Below are positions 14,726 to 49,126 of a stretch of DNA of 64,000 nt, piece by piece (positions within the stretch are counted from its first letter, which is position 1; each line of letters begins with the position of its first letter). Both the position numbers and the translations under genes were made by a program. Source of the stretch: a virus; IMG/VR virus record IMGVR_UViG_3300042731_003040, positions 44,380-108,379 of that record. The stretch is one strand, 5' to 3'. The notes beneath the pieces were generated by a model, which worked only from the letters and a program-made list of their open reading frames with translations, made no database searches and was not told the DNA's origin.

Positions 14726-16858
14726 ATGAGCAAAACCGGTGACAGTGCTGGGCGTCCGAAAGATGCCTCCGCCACAGTTTATCTGATGGAGGAGCTGGGG
14801 GACGCTCGCCTCCGTTGCGACCAACTCATTCGGTATCTGGATGAGGCGGTCAAACTCGTGGAACAGTCCAAGTACAGGGACCACTTCTTCGAGGTAGCGG
14901 GGCATCTCATCACAGGTCTGCCCGAGGCAGCCTTCAAGCTGCAGAAAGCTCTCCAGGCGGTGGCACTGGCGGCCGACCGTTTGGACTATGAAGAGGTCAA
15001 ACAAGAACTTCGGCCCGAGAAGGTCGAGGAGCTTGAGCGAGTTCTTCAGGATGTTCGTATCCGCCAAATCAGACGTCGTTCGGAGCCTCCCATGAATTAC
15101 AAGGATACCGCTGAAAGACTCAGACTTCTCGCTGCCAAGATCAAGGAGAGCCAAGCGTTCCCTGTGGTGGAGACGTTGCTTCTGGCGAGTGAGTTGGAAG
15201 GGCAACAGAAGGTGGCTAGTAACCGAGAGGTCTTGGCGGATTTCTTCGAGGGCCTGGCGACTTCTCTGGATGAGGCCCAGCCGGGAGAGATGAGTCGAGC
15301 CTATTTGGCCAAGCTGCTTCGGCGCGTGACCGGGGAGAACCTTCAGGTCAAGCCTCCTGTCAAGCAGGCGGAGTCAGAGGTGACTGCTCTTTCTACCGAG
15401 GTAGATGTCAATCGTCTGGAGCGGGCGCTTGTTAATGCCGAGGCCCAGGTCAAGGAGATGCGACATTCTCTGAATCTGTACAAGAGAGACCCTGGTCGGA
15501 ACCAGCCTCAGCTGAGTAATCTGGTGATAGCTGCCAGCTCTGCTGCCAAGGTTTTAGACCGGCTCATTATCAAGCCCTTGTGGGGGAAGCTGGGAGCCAA
15601 GGAAGAGGATCGAGAGTCTCGTTTCGAGGAGGGGAAGCCAGCGGACCCCACGAAGGACATGAGTCCCGAGGATGCCAAGAAGTGGCGAGAGCAGAATCGT
15701 AAGCACCGAGACGAGTTCAAGGGCGCTGCTGGAGGAGACCCTGCTGACTTGGCTCACGAGATCCTAGAGCAAGGACTTCGGCATCCTGCTCTGAAGGAGA
15801 TCACCAGATCTTGGTCGAAGGTGGAGGCCGATCTGAAGAAGGCGGAGACAGAGCACAAGAACCTGCATCGGTTTGGTGTTGGAAGCACCGAGGATGTGAC
15901 TCTTGTCAATGCTCACATCGTTCCGGCTCTCAAGTCCTATCGTGATATGGTGGACATCATCATCGAGCAGATAAGCAAGCGTCTGAAGCGACGTACGGCT
16001 TCGGAAGAGGATCGAGAGTCTCGTTTCGAGGAAGGGAAACCGGCCGATCCGACCAAGAACATGAGTCCTGAGGACGCCAAGAAGTGGAAAGAGCAGAACG
16101 ATAGGCACAAGGACAAGTTCAAGAGTGCTGATGCCCAAAAGGAGTCTGCCAAGTGGATCCAGAAGGCCATCAAGGACAAGGGAGCTCTTCATCGTCACTT
16201 CGGGATCCCTGAAGACGAGACGATCCCCACCGAGAAGATCAAGAGTGAGCTAGCCAAGCTGAAGAAGAAGGAAGACAAGAGCGACGCTGACAAGAAGCTC
16301 CAGCATCAGCTCAACATGGCTCTCACCCTGCGTGGTCCCAAGGTTCCCCCTCCAGGTGGGAAGAAGGCTGGCGACGAGTGGAAGGTGGAGGCTGTAGAGG
16401 TCACGGCTGCTCTCAAGCCTAAGGACAAGAAAGTCGTCGATGCTTTTGCCGACAAGAAGCCGATGGATGGTGACTTGCTCGACACGGACGGTAAGAAGCT
16501 GGAGAAGTCTGGCCTGGGTGGCGGTACATTCGCCGAGTGGAAGGGTGGCAAGATCCACATTCTGAGCCCGGGTGGGAACCGGAGCCATGACGCAATCCTC
16601 CGCTACATGAAGAAGTCGATCCCCAAGAACGACCTTGCCGACCATCCCCAGCTGAGGGCCGCGTCAGACCCTTGGAAGGCCGCAGCCCTCAAGTTCAAGC
16701 CTGGTGACAAGGTGAGGGTCAAGGACTCTCATGGTTCTGCCAAGTTCCGGGGCGACACTGGAGAGATCGAAAAGAACGTTCCGATGGGCAAGTACTACGT
16801 CCAGCTCAAGAAGAACGGACGGTCTTTGGTGGACGAGGGAGACCTGGAAAAGGCGTGA
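14726..16858 (+). CDS. Large helical protein with duplicated segment and KOW-like C-terminus
   Basis: This 710-residue protein is of unknown role. The N-terminal third is helical and charged. Two nearly identical 40-residue segments (starting EEDRESRFEEGKPADPTK and containing MSPEDAKKW) occur at about residues 293-332 and 427-466. Between them lies a helical domain, and after the second a Lys-rich helical stretch. A domain near 545-640 contains VEAVEVTAALKPKDKKVVDA. The last 55 residues look like a KOW/SH3 barrel (KFKPGDKVRVKDSHGSAKFR, then GKYYVQLKK). Such composite proteins occur as internal head or virion-associated proteins, but the evidence here is composition and place only. Confidence 0.6.
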   Translation: MSKTGDSAGRPKDASATVYLMEELGDARLRCDQLIRYLDEAVKLVEQSKYRDHFFEVAGHLITGLPEAAFKLQKALQAVALAADRLDYEEVKQELRPEKVEELERVLQDVRIRQIRRRSEPPMNYKDTAERLRLLAAKIKESQAFPVVETLLLASELEGQQKVASNREVLADFFEGLATSLDEAQPGEMSRAYLAKLLRRVTGENLQVKPPVKQAESEVTALSTEVDVNRLERALVNAEAQVKEMRHSLNLYKRDPGRNQPQLSNLVIAASSAAKVLDRLIIKPLWGKLGAKEEDRESRFEEGKPADPTKDMSPEDAKKWREQNRKHRDEFKGAAGGDPADLAHEILEQGLRHPALKEITRSWSKVEADLKKAETEHKNLHRFGVGSTEDVTLVNAHIVPALKSYRDMVDIIIEQISKRLKRRTASEEDRESRFEEGKPADPTKNMSPEDAKKWKEQNDRHKDKFKSADAQKESAKWIQKAIKDKGALHRHFGIPEDETIPTEKIKSELAKLKKKEDKSDADKKLQHQLNMALTLRGPKVPPPGGKKAGDEWKVEAVEVTAALKPKDKKVVDAFADKKPMDGDLLDTDGKKLEKSGLGGGTFAEWKGGKIHILSPGGNRSHDAILRYMKKSIPKNDLADHPQLRAASDPWKAAALKFKPGDKVRVKDSHGSAKFRGDTGEIEKNVPMGKYYVQLKKNGRSLVDEGDLEKA
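15601..15720 (+). repeat. 120-bp direct repeat, copy 1
   Basis: First copy of an in-frame repeat inside the 710-aa gene. It matches 16003-16122 over its whole length, with mainly synonymous or conservative changes, and encodes the EEDRESRFEEGKPADPTK/MSPEDAKKW segment. Confidence 0.88.
16003..16122 (+). repeat. 120-bp direct repeat, copy 2
   Basis: Second copy of the in-frame repeat at 15601-15720. The first 28 bases are identical to copy 1; differences grow toward the 3' end. Confidence 0.88.
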
Positions 16859-34317: not shown

Positions 34318-35694
34318 ATGCCCTACGCTACTCAGCGAGACAGAGATCCGCACCAGCTGGAAATTGAGAGCTCCCCTTACCCGGTCTCTCCGTTGAATTT
34401 GTCCATGACTTCTGGCTACGAGCCGGGGGTCATCAATTTGACGTGGGATGACGCGGCCCAACTGTTTCAGAATTCTCGGTTTCAGATCATCGGGGTCAAC
34501 GTTTGGAGGTCTTTCGACAGCGAGTTCGGTCCTTACGATCGGGTCACGACCTTGCCGGTGGGATCTAATTTCTGGCAGGACCGTACAGACAACGTGCTGA
34601 TTCCAGCTGAGGATGTTTCGGATTCGTTCATCCTCAGAGGAGTTAACTCGACCGGATCGGACTACGGTAGGTACGTATTTCAGACCCAGTATCCTATCGT
34701 GAAGGCAGGTTCCCAGGCGATACCGGCAAACAGTCCTGATGATGTGTTGGTGATGGTGGATGGGGTCCAGGCTCGGGTAAAGCGAGTTGATGGGTTCGCC
34801 AAAGAAGTCGAGCTGGATACCACCAAATACTACAACACCGAGAAGCAGAACCAGGATACCCCTGTCTATCCGGGGGACAACAGCGTGGTCACCTGTGCCT
34901 ATCGGTACAACCGAACGCTTCTGAAGACAGACCTAGCACAAAGGGTCTTCTACAGAGTTACCACGGTAGGTCTTCCTGAGGCTTCTGATCTGTCGGCCGC
35001 TTGTTGTGAGGATCTTCGGGAGACGCCTTTGGAGCGGGCTCCTGTGACCAGCACCTCAGAGATTGAGAAGCTGGACTACATCTGGAGGGAAGGTATTCGA
35101 CGCAATCGTTGGATTCTGTTCCAGGGGGGCGAGCGAGTGAAGGTCTTCATCAAGAAGCATGTAGGGCCTATTTGCCCATGCCGAGGTCCTCACTACGAGA
35201 GTTTTCATCAGCCCAAGAATGATTGCGAGCTGTGTTTTGGGGCGGGTATTTTGGGAGGGTATGAAGGCCCCTACGATATCATCATTGCTCCTGACGATGC
35301 TGAGCGTAGGATTGCTCAACGGGACGTTGGTCGAACCGTGGAACATACCTACGAGGTCTGGACGGGTCCTTCCCCTCTCCTAAGCCAGAGAGACTTCTTG
35401 GTTAAGATCAACGGGGAGCGCTACTCAATTGGAGCCGTACGGTTTCCGTCCAATCGAGGAATGGTGTTGCAGCAGCATTTCAATATCAGCCGTTTGGACG
35501 AACAGGACATTCGTTACAGGGTCCGGGTAACGGCTCCTTGTGGGGTGTCTGCCAACGTGGCGGGAGTTGGTCGAGCTCTTCCTGGCATACCTCCTGGCAG
35601 TAATGCGTCTGTCCCCCTCACTGAGAAGTGCAACATTCCTAATGAGCGTGAGATCAGAGGCCGCACTGTGACCTGGAAGAACATCACGTTCTGA
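34318..35694 (+). CDS. Structural protein with FnIII-like domain and zinc-knuckle
   Basis: This 458-residue protein begins with an FnIII/Ig-like part (about 20-125: GVINLTWDDAAQLFQNSRFQ, VNVWRSFDSEFGPYDRVTTL). A second beta domain lies at about 130-215. A Cys cluster at about 285-310 (CPC, then CELCFGAG) reads as a zinc knuckle. The C-terminal part (330-458) is beta-rich with a Cys pair (TAPCGV, EKCNIPNE). Proteins with a CPC...C..CxGxG insertion occur in the neck region of other large phages. Likely a neck or tail-completion structural protein; exact role unknown. Confidence 0.55.
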   Translation: MPYATQRDRDPHQLEIESSPYPVSPLNLSMTSGYEPGVINLTWDDAAQLFQNSRFQIIGVNVWRSFDSEFGPYDRVTTLPVGSNFWQDRTDNVLIPAEDVSDSFILRGVNSTGSDYGRYVFQTQYPIVKAGSQAIPANSPDDVLVMVDGVQARVKRVDGFAKEVELDTTKYYNTEKQNQDTPVYPGDNSVVTCAYRYNRTLLKTDLAQRVFYRVTTVGLPEASDLSAACCEDLRETPLERAPVTSTSEIEKLDYIWREGIRRNRWILFQGGERVKVFIKKHVGPICPCRGPHYESFHQPKNDCELCFGAGILGGYEGPYDIIIAPDDAERRIAQRDVGRTVEHTYEVWTGPSPLLSQRDFLVKINGERYSIGAVRFPSNRGMVLQQHFNISRLDEQDIRYRVRVTAPCGVSANVAGVGRALPGIPPGSNASVPLTEKCNIPNEREIRGRTVTWKNITF

Positions 35695-35700
35695 TTACCT

Positions 35701-36213
35701 ATGCGGCCTCCTAAAGTCAAAGTTGGCCGAGTCAACCTCAAGCCTTTGCTCCCTCCCGGGAGTCTGGAGACATTTGATGCTCAGAAGGTCCTTCGGTCTA
35801 TTTCCAGGGAGGTGGTGAAGCAGCTCAGAGACAAAATCCTTCAGGAGCCTTTCTCGGACCGGGCCAAAGTAGCGTTGAGCAAGGCCATAGGTGTCACGGT
35901 GGGGCCCCGGAGCATCACTATCACAGCCAAGCACCCGGCCTTCAAGCCTCTACTGGAGGGACGCAAAGCCAGACAGATGACCTGGTTGACCAAGGCTAAG
36001 CGCCCCATTCCCATCATCACAGAGGACGGTGAGCTGATCTTTCGTTCGGCTACTCCTCGATCGATGCAGAGGGGCAGTTGGTATCATCCTGGAAGGTCTC
36101 CCACGACTGTCATTGAGCGTGCCCGAAAGGAGGCTCGAAAGAGCGTAAAGAAGAGAATAGTCAAGGCTTTAGCTAGCCACGTACGTAAGACGTACAAGAA
36201 GGGATCCAGATGA
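35701..36213 (+). CDS. HK97 gp10-like tail completion/neck protein (putative)
   Basis: This 170-residue protein is basic. A mixed first half (LRSISREVVKQLRDKILQEP, VALSKAIGVTVGPRSITITA) is followed by a conserved-looking SMQRGSWYHPGRSPTTVIER and a very basic helical end (ARKSVKKRIVKALASHVRKT). The W(Y)HPG-x-x-P...AR pattern is typical of HK97 gp10-type proteins, which sit at the head-tail joint. The assignment rests on this motif and on position in the neck region. Confidence 0.55.
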   Translation: MRPPKVKVGRVNLKPLLPPGSLETFDAQKVLRSISREVVKQLRDKILQEPFSDRAKVALSKAIGVTVGPRSITITAKHPAFKPLLEGRKARQMTWLTKAKRPIPIITEDGELIFRSATPRSMQRGSWYHPGRSPTTVIERARKEARKSVKKRIVKALASHVRKTYKKGSR

Positions 36214-36214
36214 A

Positions 36215-36766
36215 ATGAGTGGTGGTATGGTTGTTTTGGGCAACGTCACGGGGACTCACTTGATAGAGGATATTCAGGTGTCTGTGCCTTATCAGGTGGC
36301 TGTGACGCTCACACAAGAAGACGTTGTAAGGTCTCGTGACTTGTGGGTTGCTCTTCAGCAGAGGTTCATAGTCAAGCTCCGAGATTTTCGTCAGGTACCG
36401 AATCCTCCTAGATCGAATAATGCAACCTCGGCAGATTCTTCAGATCTGTTGAGACTGCAAGAGGAGAATCGGAAGCTTCAATCCGAGCTGAGGCAGTCGA
36501 ATCAGCGGACCGATGGTCTCGAATACAAGCTGGATGCCATCCTAGCGGCCCTAGGAAAGCTTTCTACGGTATCCCCTAGGGGAGAGACCGCTCCCGTTGA
36601 AAAGCCTCTCAGTGAGGCTGTGGGGGGTGACACGCCCATGTTCCTTCCGGAGTTTTCAGGGACTGAGTCGGAGGCTCGTATCAAGGTCAAAACTCAGCAG
36701 GAGGAGAGTGGCAGGGTACAGGAGGCGGCCGCTCTGCTGAGGAGGCTTCGCCAGCAAGAGAAGTGA
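36215..36766 (+). CDS. Coiled-coil neck-region protein
   Basis: This 183-residue protein starts almost at the previous stop. Residues 1-65 are beta-rich (MVVLGNVTGTHLIEDIQVSV), residues about 78-115 form a coiled coil (LLRLQEENRKLQSELRQSNQ), and the rest is Pro/Glu/Gln-rich and disordered, ending with a basic helix (AAALLRRLRQQEK). Unknown function; the coiled coil suggests an oligomer. Confidence 0.52.
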   Translation: MSGGMVVLGNVTGTHLIEDIQVSVPYQVAVTLTQEDVVRSRDLWVALQQRFIVKLRDFRQVPNPPRSNNATSADSSDLLRLQEENRKLQSELRQSNQRTDGLEYKLDAILAALGKLSTVSPRGETAPVEKPLSEAVGGDTPMFLPEFSGTESEARIKVKTQQEESGRVQEAAALLRRLRQQEK

Positions 36767-36801
36767 TTCTTTTGATAGCGTTGGAATGACAGAGGTACGT
36801 T

Positions 36802-37494
36802 ATGGATCCCAAATGGAAGGCTGTTTCCGTCCCTACCAGCAAGACGGCTTGTTCCTGTGACTCTGGAAAAGCTAAATGGCCTTCCAGTTTGGAGGCAGTG
36901 TGGCAGAATCCCACTGCTTACGACGCTTTGGAGGACGGCCCTTCCTACATGCCCACGAAGACAGCCAGTACAACGGATCGGGCGGCTGTAGCCCGAATGG
37001 TTCAGGCCAATACGTACGCTGGGCAAAAGTTGGCTGACGAGGTGGGGGGAACCAGGTTAGTATCTCTGCTGACGGTCATGAAGGCTTTGTACCTGATCCA
37101 CCAGACTCATCACTGGAGGACCAACGGGGCGTCCTACTATGCGGACCATTTGTTGTTCCAGCGGATCTACGAAGAGTCTCTGGAGTACATCGATGGGATG
37201 GCAGAGCGGGCTATAGGGACGTCAAACAACCCTTGGGTGATCTGTCCTATGAAGTTGGCCAAAGGTCAGCTCAATGTCGTACACTTCTTCTGTGAGGGCA
37301 ATTCTCAACCGAGCCCTGAGCAAATGGTCAACATCAGCCTCAAAGCGGAGCTGGCTTTCTTGGCTTTTCTGAAGCAGGTTGTAGAGGCTATGAGGCAAGA
37401 GGGAAGCTCGACGGATGGCGTTGAGGACCTGATTCAGGGAACCGCCAGTAAGCATGAAGAGTTCGTTTACCTGCTGCAGCAGCGGTCCAGGTAA
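36802..37494 (+). CDS. Dps/ferritin-like protein
   Basis: This 230-residue protein has a four-helix ferritin-like core from about 60 to 225. The segment from 97 to 140 aligns without gaps to the E. coli Dps ferroxidase region: THHWRTNG (Dps AHWNMRG), ADHLLFQ (VHEMLD), and YIDGMAERAIG (HLDTMAERAV). By that alignment His104, His116, Asp131 and Glu135 equal Dps His51, His63, Asp78 and Glu82, while Dps Asp67 is Gln120 here. Dps proteins store iron and protect DNA from oxidation, forming 12-mers that may also bind DNA. Residues 1-55 are an extra N-terminal part with a CSCDSG cluster. GAGG precedes the ATG. Finding it inside the neck operon is unusual. Alternative: a ferritin-fold structural protein without iron activity. 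Confidence 0.72.
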   Translation: MDPKWKAVSVPTSKTACSCDSGKAKWPSSLEAVWQNPTAYDALEDGPSYMPTKTASTTDRAAVARMVQANTYAGQKLADEVGGTRLVSLLTVMKALYLIHQTHHWRTNGASYYADHLLFQRIYEESLEYIDGMAERAIGTSNNPWVICPMKLAKGQLNVVHFFCEGNSQPSPEQMVNISLKAELAFLAFLKQVVEAMRQEGSSTDGVEDLIQGTASKHEEFVYLLQQRSR

Positions 37495-37529
37495 AATCCA
37501 AATCCAGAATACATCAGACGAGGATACAG

Positions 37530-38540
37530 ATGAGCAAGAAAGAAGAAGGGCTTACTCTTGGGGTAGGTCTAGACATCGGGACCATGAACCTTGTAGGGGC
37601 CCGGGAGGTGGAAGGCAAGACCGTCTTCACACAGGTACGGGACGCCTTTCTGGACCTTGATCCGGAAGCGAAACGATCTCTCAAGATGTCGGGAGTGAAC
37701 TTTCTGGAGAGCAACGGGTCCTTGGTGGTGGTTGGGGACAGTGCCTTGACCATGGCCAACCTTTTCAAGAGGGAGGCTCGTCGTCCTTTGAGTCGAGGGG
37801 TGATCTCGGCTGGGGAACTGGATGCTCAAGAGATCTTGAACGTCTTGTTGCTTGAAGTGGTGGAGCAGGCCCGGGAAGAGGGGGAGCACTGCTTCTACTC
37901 AGTTCCTGCGCCGCCTCTTGATGATCCAGGTCAAGACATCATTTTCCACACTGAGATCTTTCGTAAGATCATCAGGGGGCACAAGTACACGGCGCATCCA
38001 GCCAACGAGGCGATGGCCATCATCTTCAGCCAGTGCGTTGAGGAGCAGTTCTCGGGTTTGGCGGTGAGTTTCGGGGCCGGGATGTGCAACGTGGCCTTGG
38101 CCTACAAGGCTGCTTCTGGAATGGAATTTTCCTTGGCTCGGGGAGGAGACTGGGTGGATTCTCAGTCGGCCCGAGCGGTGGGCAAGACTGCTAGTCAGAT
38201 GTGTGCCATCAAGGAAAAGGGAGTGAACCTGGCTCAACCTCAAGGTAGAGAACAGGAGGCTCTGGCTCTCTACATTCGCTCTTTGATCAACTACTGTCTC
38301 CAGAACATCGTTGCTCAGTTCAAGAAGGTTCGAAACGATGTGTCGTTGCCTGATCCGATCCCCTTTATCGTTTCGGGAGGATCTTCGATGGCCGGCGGGT
38401 TCTTGGAGTTGTTCAAGGATGAGTTCCAGCAGGTCAAAGGGTTCCCCATCGAAATCAGTGAGATTCGAGCAGCCGCCGATCCCATGACAGCCGTGGCCGA
38501 GGGGTTGTTGGTGCTCGCCAAGCAGGAACACGAAGAGTAG
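37530..38540 (+). CDS. Actin/MreB-like ATPase
   Basis: This 336-residue protein has the three ATP motifs of the actin/Hsp70 superfamily in order and spacing: phosphate-1 GLDIGTMN (13-20), phosphate-2 VSFGAGMCNV (179-188) and adenosine IVSGGSSMAGGF (280-291). Other MreB/FtsA-like points are RPLSRGVISAGELDA (85-99), HPANEAMAIIF (156-166) and GGDWVD (205-210). The length equals MreB (about 340). Actin-like proteins polymerise with ATP and move or place cargo in cells. The next gene starts one base after the stop (GTG 38542), so it is translated with neck and tail genes. It lies 35 bases after the Dps-like gene. Whether it polymerises cannot be read from sequence. Confidence 0.82.
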   Translation: MSKKEEGLTLGVGLDIGTMNLVGAREVEGKTVFTQVRDAFLDLDPEAKRSLKMSGVNFLESNGSLVVVGDSALTMANLFKREARRPLSRGVISAGELDAQEILNVLLLEVVEQAREEGEHCFYSVPAPPLDDPGQDIIFHTEIFRKIIRGHKYTAHPANEAMAIIFSQCVEEQFSGLAVSFGAGMCNVALAYKAASGMEFSLARGGDWVDSQSARAVGKTASQMCAIKEKGVNLAQPQGREQEALALYIRSLINYCLQNIVAQFKKVRNDVSLPDPIPFIVSGGSSMAGGFLELFKDEFQQVKGFPIEISEIRAAADPMTAVAEGLLVLAKQEHEE

Positions 38541-38541
38541 C

Positions 38542-39717
38542 GTGTACTACTTTCTCACCAACTCCCTTAGGAACCGTTTGATTCTGGAGCTGCAGGATTC
38601 GTTTTCGAAGCATGCTCTCTACAAAAAGATCGTTCCTAACATCCAGAACAAGTACGCCTTCAAAGAGCGGCCTCAGTTTGGGGTAGTGGTCAAGGGAGCC
38701 AGCGGAAACAAAATCCAGCTCTCGGCGGACAACTTCATTGGGGAAGTACTGAGCCATGTCATGCTGGCGTATGTGGGGGAACATCAGTTTCCCTTGGAGT
38801 GGGTGAGAGAGGACCTGAATAGAGTTAGGGCAGCAGGAGGTTTCCCTTCTCCTCCGGGGATCTACTATATCGAGGTTCTTCAGGCTCCAACCAATCCGAC
38901 AGAGCCTGGGTTTTTCGCTATCGACCCTCTTTACACGCAGCCTGATGAAGCGGTTCTGGTTTTCCAGTCGGGAATTGAGAAAGAGGCCCAGCTTCAGAAC
39001 GTACCCGTTCAGGACACTGTGCGGATCTGGGAGAACAACAAGCGGCTTCTCATCGAGGGAACGGACTACATCGTCAATTATGAGACGGGGGCGGTGGCTG
39101 TCTTGCAGTCGTTCCCTCCTGGGACTACTTGGATTGCTCAATACCGTTATGCTGGGGAGTCCCAAGGTCCTATTCCCTTCTACTGGAACAGGGCGGACTT
39201 CGAGAGCATTCCGGGGGTGGTACTGGCTTTTGGAAAGAGAGCTGTTGAGGGGGATACGGTGGCTGTGGTTGTCTACCAGGATAGGGTAGGCACAGCCAAG
39301 GCTTATGGAGGGCAATTCGAAGCCTCTTTTGATTTGGATGTTATGGCTCGTGATACCGAGCAGGTGGGGGAAATCGCCGACATGATCTTCATGTACCTCA
39401 TGGCGGAGAAGCGTCCGATTCTGAGTGAAGAAGGTCTAGAGATCATGGACGTCTCTATGGGGGGTGAGGCTGAAGAAGTGATGGATGAGAGTGGAGACAA
39501 CTACTCCTATACCGTTTCCATGTCGGTACAGATCCAGTCGGTGTGGGAAATTCATATTCCGCAACCTCTCACCATCAGCAGAGCTACTCCTGTGACAGCT
39601 GCGGGGGATTCCGATCCTTCTCAACCTTCAGGACTTGTGGCCAGGGCGGACAAGCTGTTTTTCCAGACCACCCCCATTCTGGCCAACAGAAATCCAGATT
39701 ACGAACGCATCGGATGA
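38542..39717 (+). CDS. Neck or tail-terminator structural protein (putative)
   Basis: This 391-residue protein starts at GTG one base after the actin-like gene stop. It has a helical N-terminus (RNRLILELQDSFSKHALYKK), a helical/mixed first domain and a beta-rich middle (VPVQDTVRIWENNKRLLIEG, TDYIVNYETGAVAVLQSFPP). A C-terminal half with RDTEQVGEIADMIFMYLMAE and YSYTVSMSVQIQSVWEIHIP follows. Position just before the sheath gene is that of T4-like tail terminator or sheath-stabiliser genes, but sequence identity cannot be judged. No motif is decisive. Confidence 0.5.
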   Translation: MYYFLTNSLRNRLILELQDSFSKHALYKKIVPNIQNKYAFKERPQFGVVVKGASGNKIQLSADNFIGEVLSHVMLAYVGEHQFPLEWVREDLNRVRAAGGFPSPPGIYYIEVLQAPTNPTEPGFFAIDPLYTQPDEAVLVFQSGIEKEAQLQNVPVQDTVRIWENNKRLLIEGTDYIVNYETGAVAVLQSFPPGTTWIAQYRYAGESQGPIPFYWNRADFESIPGVVLAFGKRAVEGDTVAVVVYQDRVGTAKAYGGQFEASFDLDVMARDTEQVGEIADMIFMYLMAEKRPILSEEGLEIMDVSMGGEAEEVMDESGDNYSYTVSMSVQIQSVWEIHIPQPLTISRATPVTAAGDSDPSQPSGLVARADKLFFQTTPILANRNPDYERIG

Positions 39718-39720
39718 ACC

Positions 39721-40155
39721 ATGCCCAAGTACACTTTCGAGTGTGATTCCTGCAACGTTAGGTTCACTCGGACTCTCAAAATGGGAGAACACCTGACCTG
39801 CGCCTGTCCCAAGTGCAGAGAGCAGGTTCCTAGGTTTTGGGATGGACAGGGGTTTTCCTTCGATTTTGCCGAGGGAGGGAAGGCCCCGGCAAACAGTGGG
39901 GTGACCAAGCACGATTATCCGACGGCGGACCAGGCTGTGGGAAGGTCCGCCGACAAACGGTGGGCAGAGTACCGAGAGCGGGAAAAGGTGAAAGAAAAGG
40001 TTCGGGAGAGGGGGGGTTCCAGAGCCTTGAATCGGACAGACTCCCCGGAAATAAACGGAAATCGTAGCTATATCCAGTACACAGCCATAGGAGAAAAGGA
40101 GCTCCAGGGACGTCGGGAAGTGGTGGGTAAGCTTAAGCAGCTAGAGCCTCGATAA
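39721..40155 (+). CDS. FmdB-type zinc-ribbon protein
   Basis: This 144-residue protein begins MPKYTFECDSCNVRFTRTLK with Cys8, Cys11, and then Cys27, Cys29 and Cys32 (CACPKC), the four-cysteine ribbon of the FmdB family. The remaining two thirds are basic and Glu/Arg-rich with NRSYIQYTAIGEKELQGRRE. FmdB-like ribbons are common in phages and their roles are mostly unknown; regulatory and structural roles have been suggested. The start lies 3 bases after the previous stop. It closes the neck cluster before the 120-base gap. Confidence 0.65.
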   Translation: MPKYTFECDSCNVRFTRTLKMGEHLTCACPKCREQVPRFWDGQGFSFDFAEGGKAPANSGVTKHDYPTADQAVGRSADKRWAEYREREKVKEKVRERGGSRALNRTDSPEINGNRSYIQYTAIGEKELQGRREVVGKLKQLEPR

Positions 40156-40275: not shown

Positions 40276-43200
40276 GTGTCTCTAGGACCATTGACGACCT
40301 ACGTTCCCCCTGGCATCTACACCCGCACCCTGACCGAGGTCAACGCAGCCAACTTGGTGGCTGGCCTTCGGATCCCCGTTGTCATTGGCGTGGGACAGGA
40401 ACAGCTGGAGCAATCCGACCTGGAAATGGTCAGGGGTAGCTCGGCTACTCTGGACCAGCAAATCGTCAGCGAGGACGTCTCACAGTCTTTCGTGGTGGAC
40501 AACTCCAATCCTCTGGTTCCCGTTCTGGGACCCACGGATGGGACCTTCACGACGGTTCGAGTTCGCAACTACCCCATTGTGGATGGACAGGGCTTTGGCC
40601 GAGTGACCAACGACGTTCGTTCGGTCAGTGCCACGGTCAACGGGACGCCTGTGGCCATCGGAAGTGTGCAGGGTACCAACGGATACATCACCTTCCAGGT
40701 ACCGCCTCAGGTGGGGGACGACGTTCGGGTCACCTATTACTTCCACCGAGGAGACACTGCTTTCACGGATACCGTGTCTGACCAGGTGACTCCGACCACA
40801 GCGGACCTGACCACTCCTGCAGTGGCCAACTTCGCTTTCACGACAGGTATCAGCGACACCTTCGTGATCGGAGTGGATGGTACTGACAGTACCGTTGTCT
40901 TTACCGAGGGCATTCACACAGCTCTAGCCGTCAAGACCATGATCGACGCCGCTCTGATCACTGGATTGACTACGGCAGTCTTCACGGACAACGAAGGCAA
41001 TGACCACGTCACTCTGACGGCGGCTCAGAAGCTGGTGATTGGTACGGGCAACGCTAATGGAGCTTTGGGCTTCACGGCGGGGGCTTCCACCAGTCGAAAC
41101 GTCAACTTCCGGGTGTTCCAGCGTCCTATCGTGGATGGAACGGATGGAGGGATCACCACCACAGACCCAAGCAAGGTTGTGGTGCTAGTGAACAACTCTC
41201 AGGTCATTCCCACTGCTGTGGATGGCACCAACGGAATCGTGACTTTGCCGATGGCCCCTGCGGCTGGAAGCACCGTCACAATTCAGTACTGGGCCAACAC
41301 GTGGCAGGACACCTTCGACTACTTGCCCAACACGCTGGTTTCGACGGTGACCCGTTGCGGGTTCTCGCCTGGTCGTTCGGACTACATCCAGAACCAGGAT
41401 TTCGTCATCTCCAATCCGAGCGAGGATGTCTCGGTGGTCCACTGGGGCTCCAGTGTGGCTGTTTCCTCAGTCCTGAGAACGGCTGGGGCAACCGTCTTCG
41501 ACGAGACGCAGATCCTGGCCTCTTTGGTCGATGACAAGATGTACTTGGCGGAATGCACCCGGGTGGTAGACACCACGGTCGTTCCTGCCGAGACATCTCC
41601 CAATGAGTTCCTGCTCCCGGCTATTCCGACCACAGGCAACGGTCGAGACACGCCGCTTGGGAGCACACTCTACAACACGGTCACCAATGGCCGGATGAAC
41701 CTGAACACGGATCGTCCCGATCTCATCACGGTCTACACTGGTCGAGATCTTCGGGATGCGTTGGGTCGGGATCCCATCGATGTGATCGAAGTGGATGCCC
41801 TCAATCGCCAGATCACGCTCAAGCAGGCCGTTCCTCCAGATCACAACGCCTACGCCACGTTCTGGTATAGCCGTCTGTCTGACGACACCTACGTGCTGAC
41901 CAACAAGGTGGCTGGAGCCGTTGGTACAGGAGAGTACGAGGTATTCAGTTCCGTTCAGAACAACAACCTCTTGCAGGTTCTGTTCGGAAGCAAGACGGCT
42001 ACCGAAGTCATTCAGTGGCCTCGGGGAGTGGAGAGTATTCCAGATGCCTTCCACACGGGTACGGGAACTGGGTCTCCAGTGGCCGAGACTGTCACTGTTA
42101 CCTTCGCTTCTGAGGCAGCCAAGAATGCTGCTTACACTAACGAAGGGGCCGCTCCCTACGAGTTCTTCGCTGGAACTTCGGATCAGTGGGTGACCGTGCT
42201 CAACGGCGTGACCTACCCTACGGACCTGGATACAGCCGTGGTTGGTCGAATCGTTGGGACTCGGGTGGCTGTGGATGGTTCCGACCAGATCACCTTCACC
42301 ACGGGCGTCAACGACGTTCTGAACCTGACCATCGACGGGACGGACTACACTGTGACTTTCTCAGCAGGCGCTACTGCTGTGGGGCCAGTGGGAACGCCTG
42401 GGACGGTCCTTGCTCAGATCGCTGCGGTCATTCCGACCACACCTGAACTGGTTCAGTTGGGTCCCTCGGGATCTGATGTGATGTTCATCATCCCCTCGTC
42501 TTCGACGCCTGCGGCTTTGCCTGGTGGCTTCGACCATGTCTCTGCGGTCAGCGTCCGTCAGGGTACTGCCGAGACGACTTTGGGCTTTGTGCCTTTCCAG
42601 TCGGCCTCGGGGACTCCCACGGCAACCAACAAGCCGGCCACCCTTTTGGGTACGGAGACCGGGGACTTCATCATCACTCTTGGCGTGAACGACGAGTTCA
42701 AGTTCCGGGTCGATGGATTGGAGTACACAGTCACTCTGACGGCGGGCACTCGTACGGCGACCCAGGTGGTTTCGGACATCACGGGTGTGGTTGCTGGGGT
42801 GGCTTCTGTGGGTACCTTGGCCAACTTGGACAAGGTTCGACTCACCAGTACCACCACCAACTCTGGCTCTAGGATCGTCATTCTCGATGGCTCAGCCAAC
42901 GATACGCTGGGCTTCACCGAAGATGATTCGGCGAGCTACACGCCTGTCACGGCTCAGGAAGTGGTCAACGAGCTTCTGGCCACGGCCAGTTTCCAGACCG
43001 ACGGGGTGGCTTACGTTTCCACCATCAATGGAAGCCAGTACGTAACCATTGAGTCCAGTGATGTGGGAGCCACTACCCCATCGGCATCGAGCATCGCTTT
43101 CACGTCGGTTTCCAACTCGGCATTCAACACTACCACGGGTACAGGCATCGAGCCTGGCACCAGTGGAGACAATGGTGAGGACGCTCGGGACATTTACACC

Positions 43201-44535
43201 GTTGCCACGGACCGAACAGACGGCCTGGGTTCTGGTGGAACCGGTGTTCCGGGGCAGACCTACACGGATGCCAAGACGGGCCTGAGATTCACGGTTCTGG
43301 AGTCTGCCACGGGGTCCTACACTCCTGGAGGCACCTTTACTCTGACTGTCAGCCCGACCTGGAAAGTCCATCCTTCGATTCCAAGCCTGCAGTTGGGCGG
43401 TCTCGAAGTCATCGTCACGGACACGGTGGGTGTGGGAGTGGACGACACGGCCAATGTTCAGGCGTTCAATCCTGGTGGTAGCGAGCCAGCTGTCGGAGAC
43501 TTCTACTACATCAGCTATCAGTACCTGAAGCAGGATTTCTCGACTCGGCTGTTCCAAACCTTCAAGGTCATCGAGGCCAACTTTGGTCGTTTGAGTCCTG
43601 AAAACAGGGTCACCTTGGCTAGCTTCCTGGCCATTCTGAATGGTGCGGTCCTCGTGGGTATCAAACAGGTGCTCAAGGAGTCCAACACCAACCAGGCCAG
43701 TGACGCTTCGTTCTTGGCGGCCCTTCAGGAGCTGACCATTCCGCTGCCTGGCAACGTCAAGCCGGATGTATTGGTGCCTCTCACGACCTCTACGACGGTC
43801 TATGGGGCTCTGATGCAGCACTGTGAGGTTCAGTCCAACATTCGCAACCAAGCGGAAAGGATGGGCTTCATTGGGTTCGCTTCGGGAACCTCTCCGATCA
43901 CAGCCCAAACGATTGCCAAGAGCTTGCTCAGCAACCGTATCGTGGCTGTGTACCCGGACTCGGCAGTCATTACTGTGACCAATGAACTGGGTGAGAGCAG
44001 CGAATCTCTGGTTGACGGCACCTTCCTGGCTTCAGCTTTGGCTGGTGCGATCGTCAGCCCGGCTGTGGACGTGGCGACTCCGTACACGAGGCGACAACTT
44101 GTCGGAATCGACCGGCTTCCTCGGGTTTTGGACCCGGTGGAGGCAAGCCAGACAGCAGTGGCTGGTATCACGGTCCTGGAGGATCTCGCAACAACTGTTC
44201 GAGTCAAGCAGGGTCTGACCACGGACATGTCCACGATTCTGACTCGCCTTCCCACGGTGACTCAGATTGCGGACTTCGTGCAGCAACAGTCCCGAGCTAC
44301 CTTGGATGCCTTCGTGGGCACCAAGTTCCTCAGCCAAAGGACGAACGAAGTCGAAGTCTCGATGACTTCTCTGTTCAACCAGATGTTGCAGGCAGAGATT
44401 GTTGGAGGCTTCACGGGAATCAACGCAGAGGTGGATCCCAACGATCCGACCATCATGCGGTTCGAGGCGTTCTACGCTCCGATCTTCCCGCTTTTGTACA
44501 TCGTCCTCACATTCAACCTAAGAGCTAACGTCTAG
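40276..44535 (+). CDS. Tail sheath protein (large, modular)
   Basis: This 1419-residue protein is the probable contractile sheath subunit. The start is GTG with AGGAG 6 bases before it. The N-terminus (LTTYVPPGIYTRTLTEVN) and C-terminal domain (from about 1080: RLSPENRVTLASFLAILNGA, IPLPGNVKPDVLVPLTTSTT, then TRLPTVTQIADFVQQQSRAT and LLYIVLTFNLRANV) follow sheath form. T4 gp18 has 659 residues, so this one is more than double. The extra mass is beta-rich insertions: modules at about 186-264, 665-770 and 785-878 all have a TTGxxDxF-like strand, a VTF strand, a helix and an LGF end. Codon use resembles that of the capsid gene and a strong terminator follows, so high expression is likely. Sheath identity is from form, size class and position before the tube gene. 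Confidence 0.7.
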   Translation: MSLGPLTTYVPPGIYTRTLTEVNAANLVAGLRIPVVIGVGQEQLEQSDLEMVRGSSATLDQQIVSEDVSQSFVVDNSNPLVPVLGPTDGTFTTVRVRNYPIVDGQGFGRVTNDVRSVSATVNGTPVAIGSVQGTNGYITFQVPPQVGDDVRVTYYFHRGDTAFTDTVSDQVTPTTADLTTPAVANFAFTTGISDTFVIGVDGTDSTVVFTEGIHTALAVKTMIDAALITGLTTAVFTDNEGNDHVTLTAAQKLVIGTGNANGALGFTAGASTSRNVNFRVFQRPIVDGTDGGITTTDPSKVVVLVNNSQVIPTAVDGTNGIVTLPMAPAAGSTVTIQYWANTWQDTFDYLPNTLVSTVTRCGFSPGRSDYIQNQDFVISNPSEDVSVVHWGSSVAVSSVLRTAGATVFDETQILASLVDDKMYLAECTRVVDTTVVPAETSPNEFLLPAIPTTGNGRDTPLGSTLYNTVTNGRMNLNTDRPDLITVYTGRDLRDALGRDPIDVIEVDALNRQITLKQAVPPDHNAYATFWYSRLSDDTYVLTNKVAGAVGTGEYEVFSSVQNNNLLQVLFGSKTATEVIQWPRGVESIPDAFHTGTGTGSPVAETVTVTFASEAAKNAAYTNEGAAPYEFFAGTSDQWVTVLNGVTYPTDLDTAVVGRIVGTRVAVDGSDQITFTTGVNDVLNLTIDGTDYTVTFSAGATAVGPVGTPGTVLAQIAAVIPTTPELVQLGPSGSDVMFIIPSSSTPAALPGGFDHVSAVSVRQGTAETTLGFVPFQSASGTPTATNKPATLLGTETGDFIITLGVNDEFKFRVDGLEYTVTLTAGTRTATQVVSDITGVVAGVASVGTLANLDKVRLTSTTTNSGSRIVILDGSANDTLGFTEDDSASYTPVTAQEVVNELLATASFQTDGVAYVSTINGSQYVTIESSDVGATTPSASSIAFTSVSNSAFNTTTGTGIEPGTSGDNGEDARDIYTVATDRTDGLGSGGTGVPGQTYTDAKTGLRFTVLESATGSYTPGGTFTLTVSPTWKVHPSIPSLQLGGLEVIVTDTVGVGVDDTANVQAFNPGGSEPAVGDFYYISYQYLKQDFSTRLFQTFKVIEANFGRLSPENRVTLASFLAILNGAVLVGIKQVLKESNTNQASDASFLAALQELTIPLPGNVKPDVLVPLTTSTTVYGALMQHCEVQSNIRNQAERMGFIGFASGTSPITAQTIAKSLLSNRIVAVYPDSAVITVTNELGESSESLVDGTFLASALAGAIVSPAVDVATPYTRRQLVGIDRLPRVLDPVEASQTAVAGITVLEDLATTVRVKQGLTTDMSTILTRLPTVTQIADFVQQQSRATLDAFVGTKFLSQRTNEVEVSMTSLFNQMLQAEIVGGFTGINAEVDPNDPTIMRFEAFYAPIFPLLYIVLTFNLRANV

Positions 44536-44707: not shown

Positions 44708-47700
44708 ATGGAGATGGACGCCTCTACCGATTACGACTTCCGTGTTCAGGCAGCTCAGGACGAGGACATCAGCGAGCTAGAGGCCGCTGAGTACATCGTT
44801 TTCAACTTGGCTCTGGATACCTATTTCCGGTACATCGAAGAGGTCACAGGGGAGGAGCCCCCAGAGGATGACGAGAATACTCTGGATGAGGCCCCCGAGG
44901 GTGACACCACGAAGTTGGATTCTCTGGCTTCGGATGGCATTCGACTCTTGAAGCGAGTGGATAGCCGATTCCAAGAAGATGCGGTGTCCATGCTGGATAC
45001 CAACCTGCCCTCTGAGACCCACAAGAAGATGCTTCAGAGGGCGTTTCGGCGCCCAGCCAGGTCAAGGGACGCTATCTCTCGTCGAGCTCTCTTGATGCGA
45101 ACTGTGCTCTCCAGAGGAGGGCACAAGACCGTCAAAGCGGTCTTCCACAAAACTCGACCCCTTCGTGCTGTCAAAGATGCCTTGGCAGATGCCATGATGG
45201 AGGATGCAGGGCCGGCTTTGCAGAGATTTGCAGCGGTACCGATTCGGAATCCTCGGATCAAGGCTTGGATCAAGGCAGCAGCTTCCGTTACCAGGGAAAG
45301 GGATCAGCCCAATGCTGCTCCTCTCAACCCCGTGGAGGTGGCCTCTTCGGTAGGTGCCGATCATGCGGAGGCACTTCGGAAGGACACTGTTGACGAAACA
45401 GGTCTCCAAGGGGCGGAAGAGCAAGCCGTTGCTGGGGATGAAAGGGAGAACAGGATTTCCGACATCGAGTCGGAGGCTGCCGAAGCTGCCGCTGAGGTTC
45501 TGGCTGATGCCGGTGAGCCCGATGAGGTTTTGACTCGTAGTGAGGTCATTGGCATTGCTACCGCTGCAGCGGTGGCAGCTTCTACCGACCCTACCGACCC
45601 TACCAACATCCCAGAGCCTCTTAAGCGTCTAGATGACGAGCAGAGAGCAGCGGCCATGACTGACGGCAAGGTCTTGGTGGCGGCAGGGGCCGGGTCTGGA
45701 AAGAGCTGGACTTTGGTGGCCCGGGTCGAGCATCTCATCAAGGATCGAGGCGTCAATCCTGCCAGGTGTCTAGTCACTTCCTTCAACAAGAAGGCCGCTC
45801 TAGAGCTCGACTACAAGATCGGCAATGTCATTGGTGGGGACATGGCTGACGCTATGTCTATTGGGACCCTTCACGGGTTGTTCCGGCAGTTCATCGACAA
45901 GTATGGGACTCAGGAAGAGCGTATCGCTGTGGGGGTTGATAGGAAAGGTCCCAACGGGTTCGTGAAGGGAGGCGATTCTGTTGCTTCGGCTGTCAACCGG
46001 GTGTGGCGCAAGTGCTATGCCACCCAGAAGGCTGATGGGACGTGGAAGGATGCTGACGCTCCTAGGGTCAAGGATGGAATGCGTGCCAAGACCCAGTGGG
46101 CTGGAAACAACGTGACTCCTGCCCAGGCCATAGAGAAAGCGGCCACGCCAGAAGAGGCTCAGCTGGCTCAGTGGTATGAGTGGTACATGGGTTTCAAAGG
46201 GGACCTGGGGAAGGATTGGGAACCCCCTTGTGGTCGAAAGCTCAGGGAGTGGGAAGGGTTCCTAGCAAAGAAGCGTCTTGGGGGAAGGATTCGTCTTGGA
46301 GACTTCGACGACATGTTGGGTATCTTCAAAGACATCCTCAAGAGACAACCGGAAGTGAAGGCCACTGTCCAGGCGGCCTTCGACCACATTTTGGTTGACG
46401 AGTGTCAGGATCTTAATGAGACCCAGAATGAAATTATCATGATGATGTCCGAACACATCACTGATGGTTCTGATGGAAAGTCTCTTTGGATGGTGGGCGA
46501 CGATAAGCAGTGCGTGGGTGTAGACACGCCTGTCCAGGTTTCAGCAACCGAGACTGTGCCCGCGGGGGAGCTTCAAGCGGGTGCCACTGTGTTGGCTTAC
46601 CGCAATGGCAAATTGCGTCCCCAGAAGGTGTTGCACGCCAAACATTCCGATTGGCGCACTGGGTACAAGGTCACTACGGAAAGCGGTAAGACGCTTACTA
46701 TGTCTCCCAACCACAAGATTTGGGCACAAGGTCCCGTTCTTGAGGAAAGGCAAGTAGCCGTCTACCTTATGTATCGTCAGGACAAGGGCTTCCGGGTTGG
46801 GATCACCAACAAGTGCCACGACGAGGATTACTACAACTCGTTTGGGGGTCGAGCCTTCATGGAGAAGGCCGAGCGTATGTGGGTTCTTACCGTATGCCAA
46901 GACCGTGAAGAAGCCTTGTTGAAGGAGGCTTCCTACTCTTTGGAATACGGTGTGCCTACGGCAGTGTTCGAGGGGGCCAGCAGGGGTATCAACCAGGATC
47001 GGTTGGATGCCTTGTTTGAGACTTTTGGACATAACGGTAGGAAACTGCTGGCTGAAAAGACTCTGGGTTTTGACCTTCCCCACTGGGTTAGCCAATCTTA
47101 CACGAAGCATGGGCGTCTCCGTAGAACCGTGCAGATGACGGCTCATGGATCAAAGGGAAGCCAGGTTGCTTTGGAGTGGTCTGGGGATGACCTGGACGGG
47201 AAGTTGGAAGGCATCCAGTTCTCCAAGCAAGCTAATGGGCGTCGCCGTCTCCGCAAATGGTTCACCAATTATCGAGAGGCTCTTGAGTTCGCTGAGCAGG
47301 TGGCAGAAAGGACTGGAGCTGCGTTGTCTCGGCGTTTGTCTACTCCTGAAGGGCCTGTGCGGTTGCTCACTGCTTCTGGGTTGTTCTCTGGAATGCAAGT
47401 GGTTGTTAGGGACGATGAGGATCCCGAAGCCGTTGCTTTGGAAACCATCGTGTCGGTGGAACCCGTTTCCGAGACGGCCTTCGTGGATCTGGACGTGGAA
47501 GATGCTTCCAACTTCGTCGGAGGCGGTATTCTTTCCCACAACAGTATCTACGCCTTCCGTGGAGCTCGTCCTGATCTGTTCACCGCCCTGGATGGTAAGG
47601 AAGGCTGGAAGACCCGATCCATTCGAACCAACTACCGCTGCCCCCCTGAGATTGTCGAGGCCGCCAACCTTCTCATTGCGAACAACGAGGACCAGATCCC

Positions 47701-49126
47701 CATGGAGGCCACCCCCAATCCAGCTCGGATTCGAGGGATGGCAAGCATGCGGGTAGAGCAGATGCAGGACTGTGAAGGTACGGCTATCTTGGCAGCCAAC
47801 ACCATCAAATCCGCTCTTGATGGGGACAGTTGCGAGATCTCTGACAATGCGGTCCTGTGCCGTACCAATGCCGAATTGAACATGTTCGAGACGGCGTTGC
47901 TGCTTCGAGGCATCCCGTACGCTCGCAAAGGAGCCAGCAGCTTCCTTGGGTCTCCAGAAACGGCGGCCTTCTTGGGCTACATCAAGATGGTTTCAGGGGG
48001 CACTGACTTTGAGGGGCAGCAGAAGGCTCTTCGATCTATTCTCAACACGCCGAATCGGTTCTTCGTAGCCCCTGATGCAGCCAAAGCTGCTGTAGACCAG
48101 GCGCTTAGAGAGTACGCTTCAATGGAAAGGATGCCTATCAAGAACGTGGACCCGATGGAAGCCTTGGGTGATGATCGGTTCCGGCGTTCTTTGGCACATG
48201 CCTTGACCAAGATTGACCGTCCTCGTAGCCGGCGAGAAGAGTTCAAGCTGAGCAAGACGGTCGAGAAGTTAGATGCTTTCTGGGAAGAGGTAGCGGATTT
48301 GAGAGAGACCGCTCAAGCCGAGGAGACCACAACTCACCAATTGTTCGACGCCGTTCTCAGTGTCTCAGGAATCGAGTTGGAGGTGGATCCTAACACGGGA
48401 AGGATCACGGGAGAGAAGCCGGTTACTTTCCGAGAAGCCGTTTCCAACAACTTGAAGGACCAGGGTGGGGAGGACGATGACGCAGGGGCTGAGGATGAAG
48501 ACAGCTCCATGCAAGGGTTGGGGAACATTTCCTTCCTCTACGAGCTGGCCAAGCCTGATCCGAATGACCCTGCAGACAAGGCAGCCGATCCTCGAACTCC
48601 CTTTGGATTCCGAGCCAAGATGGAACGAATCAAGGAGCGGGCAAAGGAGCTTCGCTACGACATCACGGCTTGGGACAAGCAACAAGAGGCCAAGCCTCCT
48701 GAAGAGCGACAGCCGCCTCCTGGGGTGTACCTTGGGACCGTGCACTCCACGAAAGGTGCACAGTGGAAGAACACCTTTGTTCAGATGCCCGCTGGCAAGT
48801 TCCCTTTCCAGCCGCCTGCCAAGCCTGGGTCTGAGCCGCCTCCCCCAGAGGTGATCGAGAAGGAGATGCAGCAGGAGCGAAGGCTGGGCTATGTGGCGAT
48901 CACTCGGGCTATCGACAACCTGACCATTCTCTGTCCAAACGAGGTCAACGGGAAGCCTGCAGGGGTTAGTCCTTTCGTAGCCGAAGCGGGGCTACACCTT
49001 GGGGAAAACATCGGAGCAGAGCCCACCTCTCCTGAAGAAGAGCCTCCTGGAGAGCCTTCAAAGGAGGCTTCCGATGATTCGGGTTCGGATTGGGATGGTT
49101 ACGAAGCTGACTACGAGAGGTCCTAG
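44708..49126 (+). CDS. UvrD/Rep-like SF1 helicase with intein
   Basis: This 1472-residue precursor contains an SF1A DNA helicase interrupted by an intein (602-945). Helicase motifs in order: Q-like LDDEQRAA (about 310), Walker A AAGAGSGKS (Lys332), motif II VDECQD (563-568), motif III GDDKQ split from SIYAFRGA by the intein, motif IV IRTNYRCPPEIVEAAN, motif V VHSTKGAQWKN (about 1345) and motif VI YVAITRA (about 1395). After splicing about 1128 residues remain. The first about 300 residues are an added acidic and helical part not seen in UvrD (about 720 aa). The start is at ATG 44708, or 44714 with TAGGT upstream. It lies between the sheath and tube genes, an unusual place for a repair or replication helicase. 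Confidence 0.9.
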   Translation: MEMDASTDYDFRVQAAQDEDISELEAAEYIVFNLALDTYFRYIEEVTGEEPPEDDENTLDEAPEGDTTKLDSLASDGIRLLKRVDSRFQEDAVSMLDTNLPSETHKKMLQRAFRRPARSRDAISRRALLMRTVLSRGGHKTVKAVFHKTRPLRAVKDALADAMMEDAGPALQRFAAVPIRNPRIKAWIKAAASVTRERDQPNAAPLNPVEVASSVGADHAEALRKDTVDETGLQGAEEQAVAGDERENRISDIESEAAEAAAEVLADAGEPDEVLTRSEVIGIATAAAVAASTDPTDPTNIPEPLKRLDDEQRAAAMTDGKVLVAAGAGSGKSWTLVARVEHLIKDRGVNPARCLVTSFNKKAALELDYKIGNVIGGDMADAMSIGTLHGLFRQFIDKYGTQEERIAVGVDRKGPNGFVKGGDSVASAVNRVWRKCYATQKADGTWKDADAPRVKDGMRAKTQWAGNNVTPAQAIEKAATPEEAQLAQWYEWYMGFKGDLGKDWEPPCGRKLREWEGFLAKKRLGGRIRLGDFDDMLGIFKDILKRQPEVKATVQAAFDHILVDECQDLNETQNEIIMMMSEHITDGSDGKSLWMVGDDKQCVGVDTPVQVSATETVPAGELQAGATVLAYRNGKLRPQKVLHAKHSDWRTGYKVTTESGKTLTMSPNHKIWAQGPVLEERQVAVYLMYRQDKGFRVGITNKCHDEDYYNSFGGRAFMEKAERMWVLTVCQDREEALLKEASYSLEYGVPTAVFEGASRGINQDRLDALFETFGHNGRKLLAEKTLGFDLPHWVSQSYTKHGRLRRTVQMTAHGSKGSQVALEWSGDDLDGKLEGIQFSKQANGRRRLRKWFTNYREALEFAEQVAERTGAALSRRLSTPEGPVRLLTASGLFSGMQVVVRDDEDPEAVALETIVSVEPVSETAFVDLDVEDASNFVGGGILSHNSIYAFRGARPDLFTALDGKEGWKTRSIRTNYRCPPEIVEAANLLIANNEDQIPMEATPNPARIRGMASMRVEQMQDCEGTAILAANTIKSALDGDSCEISDNAVLCRTNAELNMFETALLLRGIPYARKGASSFLGSPETAAFLGYIKMVSGGTDFEGQQKALRSILNTPNRFFVAPDAAKAAVDQALREYASMERMPIKNVDPMEALGDDRFRRSLAHALTKIDRPRSRREEFKLSKTVEKLDAFWEEVADLRETAQAEETTTHQLFDAVLSVSGIELEVDPNTGRITGEKPVTFREAVSNNLKDQGGEDDDAGAEDEDSSMQGLGNISFLYELAKPDPNDPADKAADPRTPFGFRAKMERIKERAKELRYDITAWDKQQEAKPPEERQPPPGVYLGTVHSTKGAQWKNTFVQMPAGKFPFQPPAKPGSEPPPPEVIEKEMQQERRLGYVAITRAIDNLTILCPNEVNGKPAGVSPFVAEAGLHLGENIGAEPTSPEEEPPGEPSKEASDDSGSDWDGYEADYERS
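46511..47542 (+). other. Intein in helicase motif III, with GIY-YIG-like middle
   Basis: The 344-residue insertion begins at Cys602 (CVGVDTPV, block A) and ends with ...VGGGILSHN at Asn945, followed by Ser946 (SIYAFRGA), so the first residue is Cys, the penultimate residues are His-Asn and the +1 residue is Ser. Block B is TMSPNHKI with His669. The middle (about 685-750) reads VYLMYR ... GFRVGIT ... R715 ... WVL ... E740, resembling a GIY-YIG nuclease, with YGVPT after it. LAGLIDADG motifs were not seen. The insertion site between GDDKQ and SIY is within an ATPase motif, the usual type of intein site. Confidence 0.88.

Follow-up and report, generated by a model that had tools for sequence, protein, structure and literature searches.

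A Volactin-family actin-like gene in the virion module of uncultured huge phages, and a candidate adaptor whose tail motif recurs in haloarchaea

What would an actin-like protein do among the genes that build a phage virion? The question is raised by an open reading frame at 37530-38540 (+ strand, ATG to TAG, 336 aa) of the 64,000-nucleotide window analysed here, which is part of a 108-kb virus record; the identical protein is also encoded in a 437-kb virus contig. The preliminary description had read this frame as an actin-like ATPase gene in a virion assembly operon, with the next gene starting one base after its stop codon. All of this was confirmed: the downstream frame starts with GTG at 38542, and the window is one long plus-strand virion module that comprises portal, HK97 capsid, head/neck genes, the actin-like gene, a neck/terminator gene, a zinc ribbon, a probable sheath and a baseplate-hub/lysozyme-like gene. 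The genes around the actin-like frame are listed below, with distances given relative to it.

34318-35694, + strand: virion structural or head completion protein (phrog_1004, 3.4e-4; at most 5.5 kb upstream in 70/84 loci)
35701-36213, + strand: neck-region protein, syntenic (at most 4 kb upstream in 66/88 loci; weak match to phrog_2819)
36215-36766, + strand: proposed volactin adaptor, 183 aa, with an N-terminal domain, a coiled coil and a C-terminal FLP...ALLRRLRQQEK tail (at most 3 kb upstream in 81/90 loci; tail motif)
36802-37494, + strand: Dps/ferritin-like protein, a lineage-specific neighbour (PF00210, 2.6e-5; NCBIfam DpsA, 2.7e-10, below the cut-off)
37530-38540, + strand: Volactin-family actin-like protein, 336 aa (PF25216, 5e-69; AlphaFold2 model; Foldseek matches to MreB, MamK and BeeR, E 1e-13 to 1e-11)
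38542-39717, + strand: neck or tail-terminator-like protein (structure model matches neck proteins of phages 812 and E217)
39721-40155, + strand: zinc-ribbon (FmdB-like) protein, syntenic (Zn_ribbon_8, 1.8e-7, just below the cut-off; at most 4 kb downstream in 85/103 loci)
40276-44535, + strand: probable tail sheath, 1419 aa (at most 5 kb downstream and syntenic in 84/99 loci; called a sheath on our own judgement of the C-terminal sequence)

Judged by its sequence, the product is a full-length member of the Volactin family: PF25216 was matched with 233.7 bits (cut-off 35), residues 12-330 aligning to model positions 3-321, and the match to the family and its relatives is far beyond chance. Pfam MreB_Mbl scored 18.6 bits, under its cut-off of 27. 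The protein had rightly been described as diverged from both MreB and ParM, but the family already has a name, taken from a Haloferax volcanii protein (VolA, HVO_2015) published in 2024. The three actin ATP motifs reported earlier are present in the correct order (phosphate-1, D15-I-G17-T18; phosphate-2, S180-F-G182-A-G184-M; adenosine, G283-G284-S285), with the correction that Ser180 of phosphate-2 stands where MamK has its catalytic Asp161. Loss of the phosphate-loop glycines in homologues had been named as an observation that would speak against an actin-like protein; in an alignment of 35 diverse homologues, G17, G182 and G184 are invariant, as are D15, T18, E160, N187, G206, D207, D210, K228, E229, G283 and G284.

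A non-actin fold had been named likewise. With the 35-sequence alignment as input, AlphaFold2 returned a model with a pLDDT of 91 and a pTM of 0.89, which predicts an actin-like fold with high confidence. A Foldseek search of the model against the PDB retrieved MreB, MamK, BeeR and crenactin (E 8e-14 to 8e-12), MreB and MamK being the best matches, and the volactin profile had MamK as its best sequence match in the PDB (2.7e-11). The actin fold is common to MamK, MreB, BeeR, salactin and the window protein, which is 16-18% identical to the solved structures; salactin, too, has been reported to be close to MamK (PMC10746226). A PHROGs search and a single-sequence search of the PDB gave no significant match.

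In the alignment with MamK, E160 of the window protein corresponds to the catalytic E143 and S180 to the catalytic D161. The serine is a family-wide trait, found in all volactins sampled including the haloarchaeal ones (Haloarcula, Natrinema), and the phosphate-2 signature SFGAGMxN reads SFGAGMCN in the window and SFGAGMTN in these two; GGDW/KE motifs are likewise common to the window and the haloarchaeal homologues. Mutation of D161 or E143 abolishes ATPase activity and filament dynamics in actins (PMC5059902). Since volactin of H. volcanii is dynamic in vivo (PMC10869688), a volactin filament carrying Ser180 need not be inactive, although its ATPase cycle is best called putative.

Huge phages of a large, uncultured group carry a volactin relative inside the virion-building genes. 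A single-sequence scan yielded 72 relatives and profile scans of IMG/VR confirmed at least 530; they lie on several hundred contigs of uncultured phages, many of which measure 280-620 kb. Among 50,697 phage records, matches were confined to two, both from uncultured huge phages (485 and 595 kb). Outside the viruses, tblastn detected Haloarcula plasmid genes, annotated as 'hypothetical', whose products are 37% identical over 96% of the window protein, and a Natrinema gene at 36%; of 14 control genomes, H. volcanii was the only one above the Volactin cut-off. A close-match pattern search of viral contigs for haloarchaeal volactin gave nothing; this approach, then, revealed no copy in haloviruses. 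A single-gene tree places the Haloarcula protein between lineages of phages; with its long branches, it does not show whether the gene passed from haloarchaea to phages or the other way. A bacterial branch occurs in metagenome-assembled genomes of Hyphomicrobiales, in a cellular context. In two of these (L074 and L076), the volactin-family genes lie near adenylate cyclase-like, cNMP-binding and ~920-aa ABC transporter-like genes (names given from our own reading of the sequence), and no partner with the tail motif described below was found near them.

The volactin gene holds a constant place within the virion module, between portal and baseplate. The neck gene lies at most 2 kb downstream of it in 91/107 loci and, when the search was started from the neck gene, volactin directly adjoined it in all of the 69 loci whose upstream sequence was 1 kb or longer, a sample of closer relatives; a neck query from the L057 lineage returned only two loci. 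Promoter and terminator scans gave sites no more frequently than in shuffled sequence. The position may reflect late transcription alone. As proposed earlier, a role tied to virion parts rather than to DNA partition is plausible, and for the entry-linked role suggested at the same time we found nothing in favour and nothing against. The reading we prefer, at a probability of roughly 50%, is that a volactin filament and an adaptor with a tail like those of ParR and arcadin-2, both expressed late, would hold or move virion assembly intermediates. An in-frame intein of ~360 aa splits the volactin gene of another phage (L059, 9989-12091), between the conserved SLAR and GDWID motifs. Inteins usually sit in essential genes, for which reason we counted this one in favour of the preferred reading.

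The unbroken linkage to the neck gene, with overlapping or abutting genes, would also suit an assembly ATPase that forms no filaments, either a chaperone-like switch in head-tail joining or a part built into the neck. The Hsp70-fold protein of closteroviruses, a virion component, offers a precedent; Hsp70 homologues are among the viral structures matching the volactin model, and the replacement of the catalytic Asp by Ser points the same way. We nevertheless consider this unlikely, though the strongest of the alternatives: the nearest characterised relatives (volactin, MamK and MreB) form filaments, the neighbouring partner bears a tail like that of actin adaptors, and homologues exist in haloarchaea, which have no neck.

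Returning to the proposed filament, this raises the question which gene could encode its partner. The Dps-like gene, to which the preliminary description had attached significance, was found in 63/96 loci, and because the deeper lineages do not keep it, we rejected it as a meaningful partner. A partner that recurs more constantly is encoded by the coiled-coil gene at 36215-36766; the preliminary description did not pick it out, and in the deep lineages without Dps it directly abuts volactin. Sequence conservation in its protein is low (mean column identity 23%) outside two parts, an N-terminal domain and a C-terminal FIP...ALRKLRK tail. In the loci searched, no gene other than that of the adaptor had the N-terminal domain (~55 aa, window 36215-36380); the C-terminus is a short basic helix, VxxAxxxLRKLRK. 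The gene immediately upstream of volactin encodes different N-termini in other lineages (a single transmembrane helix or other domains), followed by the same type of tail, for example STVDTSSTTDKLRKLRGKRG, NITSQVEKLKKLRKRG, SGSNIQDKLNKLKKLKEG and GSVEEALAALRKLKEKK.

We trained a tail matrix on window-clade tails only and used it to score every gene on the same strand in 83 non-redundant loci that lie outside this clade. The top-scoring gene was at position -1 relative to volactin in 43/83 and at -2 in 13/83 (together 56/83), with ~10% expected per position. Column-permuted matrices put gene -1 on top in a mean of 20/83 loci (maximum 37 in 60 runs), compared with 42 for the real matrix in this set-up, so that composition explains a part of the signal, but not all of it. 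Tails scoring above 4 made up 0.8% at other positions; taken one by one, separate volactin clusters had them at -1/-2 in 77/108, 26/36, 6/6, 5/5, 2/2 and 2/2 loci. Among the 110 open reading frames of the 108-kb record, the adaptor, itself a member of the training set, was the only strong match. The idea of a tail arose from viewing the loci, which makes the matrix test a confirmation of something noticed beforehand and not a prediction made blind. Several volactin clusters are without the motif, including the L071 lineage (25 loci) and the homologues from alphaproteobacteria. In L071 (9496-9783), ~24 related loci and L301, the upstream transmembrane protein ends in another conserved tail (TSFGDxRIGEV / SSFDGKRIGQI), which may be a second type of volactin-binding peptide.

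The layout has parallels in ParM-ParR and crenactin-arcadin-2, in which a neighbouring protein binds the actin-like protein through its C-terminal helix: the 17 C-terminal residues of ParR were bound to ParM (PMC3794156), and the C-terminus of arcadin-2 sits in the groove of crenactin (PMC5173319). It is by this analogy that we propose binding of the tail helix to volactin, although the partners are unrelated outside the tail and neither a DNA-binding adaptor nor a centromere was found here. A ParM-like DNA segregation system, retained by a plasmid-like or pseudolysogenic phage, would account for the ParR-like layout of the tail, and salactin, another haloarchaeal actin, does aid DNA partition (PMC10869688). 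This explanation is nonetheless improbable, the least favoured of those weighed here: no tandem or iterated repeat family of a centromere-like kind occurs in 36100-38700, no DNA-binding domain was matched in the adaptor in Pfam (weak coiled-coil hits only), and the gene keeps its place within the virion module, not with replication genes.

In two haloarchaeal plasmids, from Haloarcula and Natrinema, the gene directly upstream of volactin encodes DUF7139, a multi-pass membrane protein. When these proteins were scored with the phage-trained matrix, after it had been fixed, they reached 23.8 and 22.4. None of 5000 shuffles and 0.3% of 948 other proteins attain such values, and 12 other annotated haloarchaeal neighbours all scored below -4. 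Each DUF7139 protein has two tandem copies of the motif (SSGVDQQVAGLKGLKGG and SSTVDDQTAKLKELREQ in Natrinema), which sit within the tail and not at the very end. By these scores, the phage adaptor and haloarchaeal DUF7139 have the tail motif in common. Among the 14 control genomes, DUF7139 was matched only in H. volcanii. The Natrinema plasmid has a second DUF7139 match, in two frames, with no annotated volactin near it. Volactin filaments of H. volcanii span the cytoplasm and contact the membrane by their tips alone (PMC10869688). Such contact would be accounted for by a membrane protein that carries volactin-binding peptides in tandem, and we infer that DUF7139 may be the membrane adaptor for volactin tips. 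No mention of DUF7139 was found in the literature outside subscription full texts.

The window system and its haloarchaeal counterpart thus have in common a full-length Volactin match and an adjacent partner with the same tail motif. They differ in that the window protein is ~37% identical to its Haloarcula homologue, phage-encoded and placed in a virion module, and in that its lineage has a coiled-coil protein as partner in place of a multi-pass membrane protein; dynamic filaments anchored to the membrane by their tips are described for H. volcanii volactin only (PMC10869688). We tentatively suggest, at somewhat less than even odds, that huge phages and haloarchaea have a common two-part actin cytoskeleton of volactin and a tail-peptide adaptor, whose other end the phages have rewired to virion assembly, through a coiled coil in some lineages and a membrane anchor in others.

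Those membrane-anchored partners of some phage lineages, along with the role of haloarchaeal volactin in cell shape (PMC10869688), could also indicate that the filaments remodel the host, altering its shape or disturbing its MreB and so making room for large virions, in which case the place among late genes would set only the timing. For the window lineage, whose partner has no transmembrane segment and is encoded among neck genes, this seems doubtful, and overall we rate it slightly below the assembly ATPase without filaments.

According to the preferred proposal, volactin would be co-transcribed with head, neck and tail genes and would probably polymerise late in infection. The N-terminal domain and coiled coil of the adaptor would hold a virion part or an assembly site, while its C-terminal LRKLR helix would dock on volactin, likeliest in the hydrophobic groove of actins or at the filament end. 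The remainder of the adaptor would decide the cargo, namely the membrane in haloarchaea and some phage lineages and a virion part in the window lineage. In a very large phage without PhuZ tubulin, such a filament could serve to anchor, position or transport procapsids, necks or tails; the cargo is the weakest step of this proposal.

For virion traffic, the known phage cytoskeleton is PhuZ, a tubulin of jumbo phages that form a nucleus. Its spindle is analogous in being a phage-encoded cytoskeleton of giant phages that moves capsids, but here actin would take the place of tubulin. Tubulin (PhuZ, PF00091) was matched in 0/29 large records, which may be fragments, and multi-subunit RNA polymerase (PF00562) in 1/19, from a distant lineage, which indicates that these phages are mostly not of the phiKZ type. 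If our reading is true, phages lacking tubulin would have, in the two-part system, a counterpart of the PhuZ spindle that is based on actin. The peptide common to the phage and haloarchaeal neighbours is a first candidate for a tether of volactin filaments, and the volactin-adaptor pair makes direct tests possible in H. volcanii and in vitro. The portions of the literature on volactin, salactin, and jumbo and huge phages available outside subscription (PMC10869688, PMC10746226, PMC13282480, PMC7162821, PMC7950403) mention neither a virus-encoded volactin nor a volactin-binding motif.

Some further observations concern the phage genomes themselves. The distant volactin phage with the polymerase genes (L062, 277 kb) has two Rpb2-type matches and is without tubulin. 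In the window, a 710-aa protein (14726-16858) weakly matches the fusellovirus VP2 family (8e-4, below the cut-off), and a UvrD/Rep-like helicase placed among the tail genes (44708-49126) is split by an intein (PF14890, 1.2e-7).
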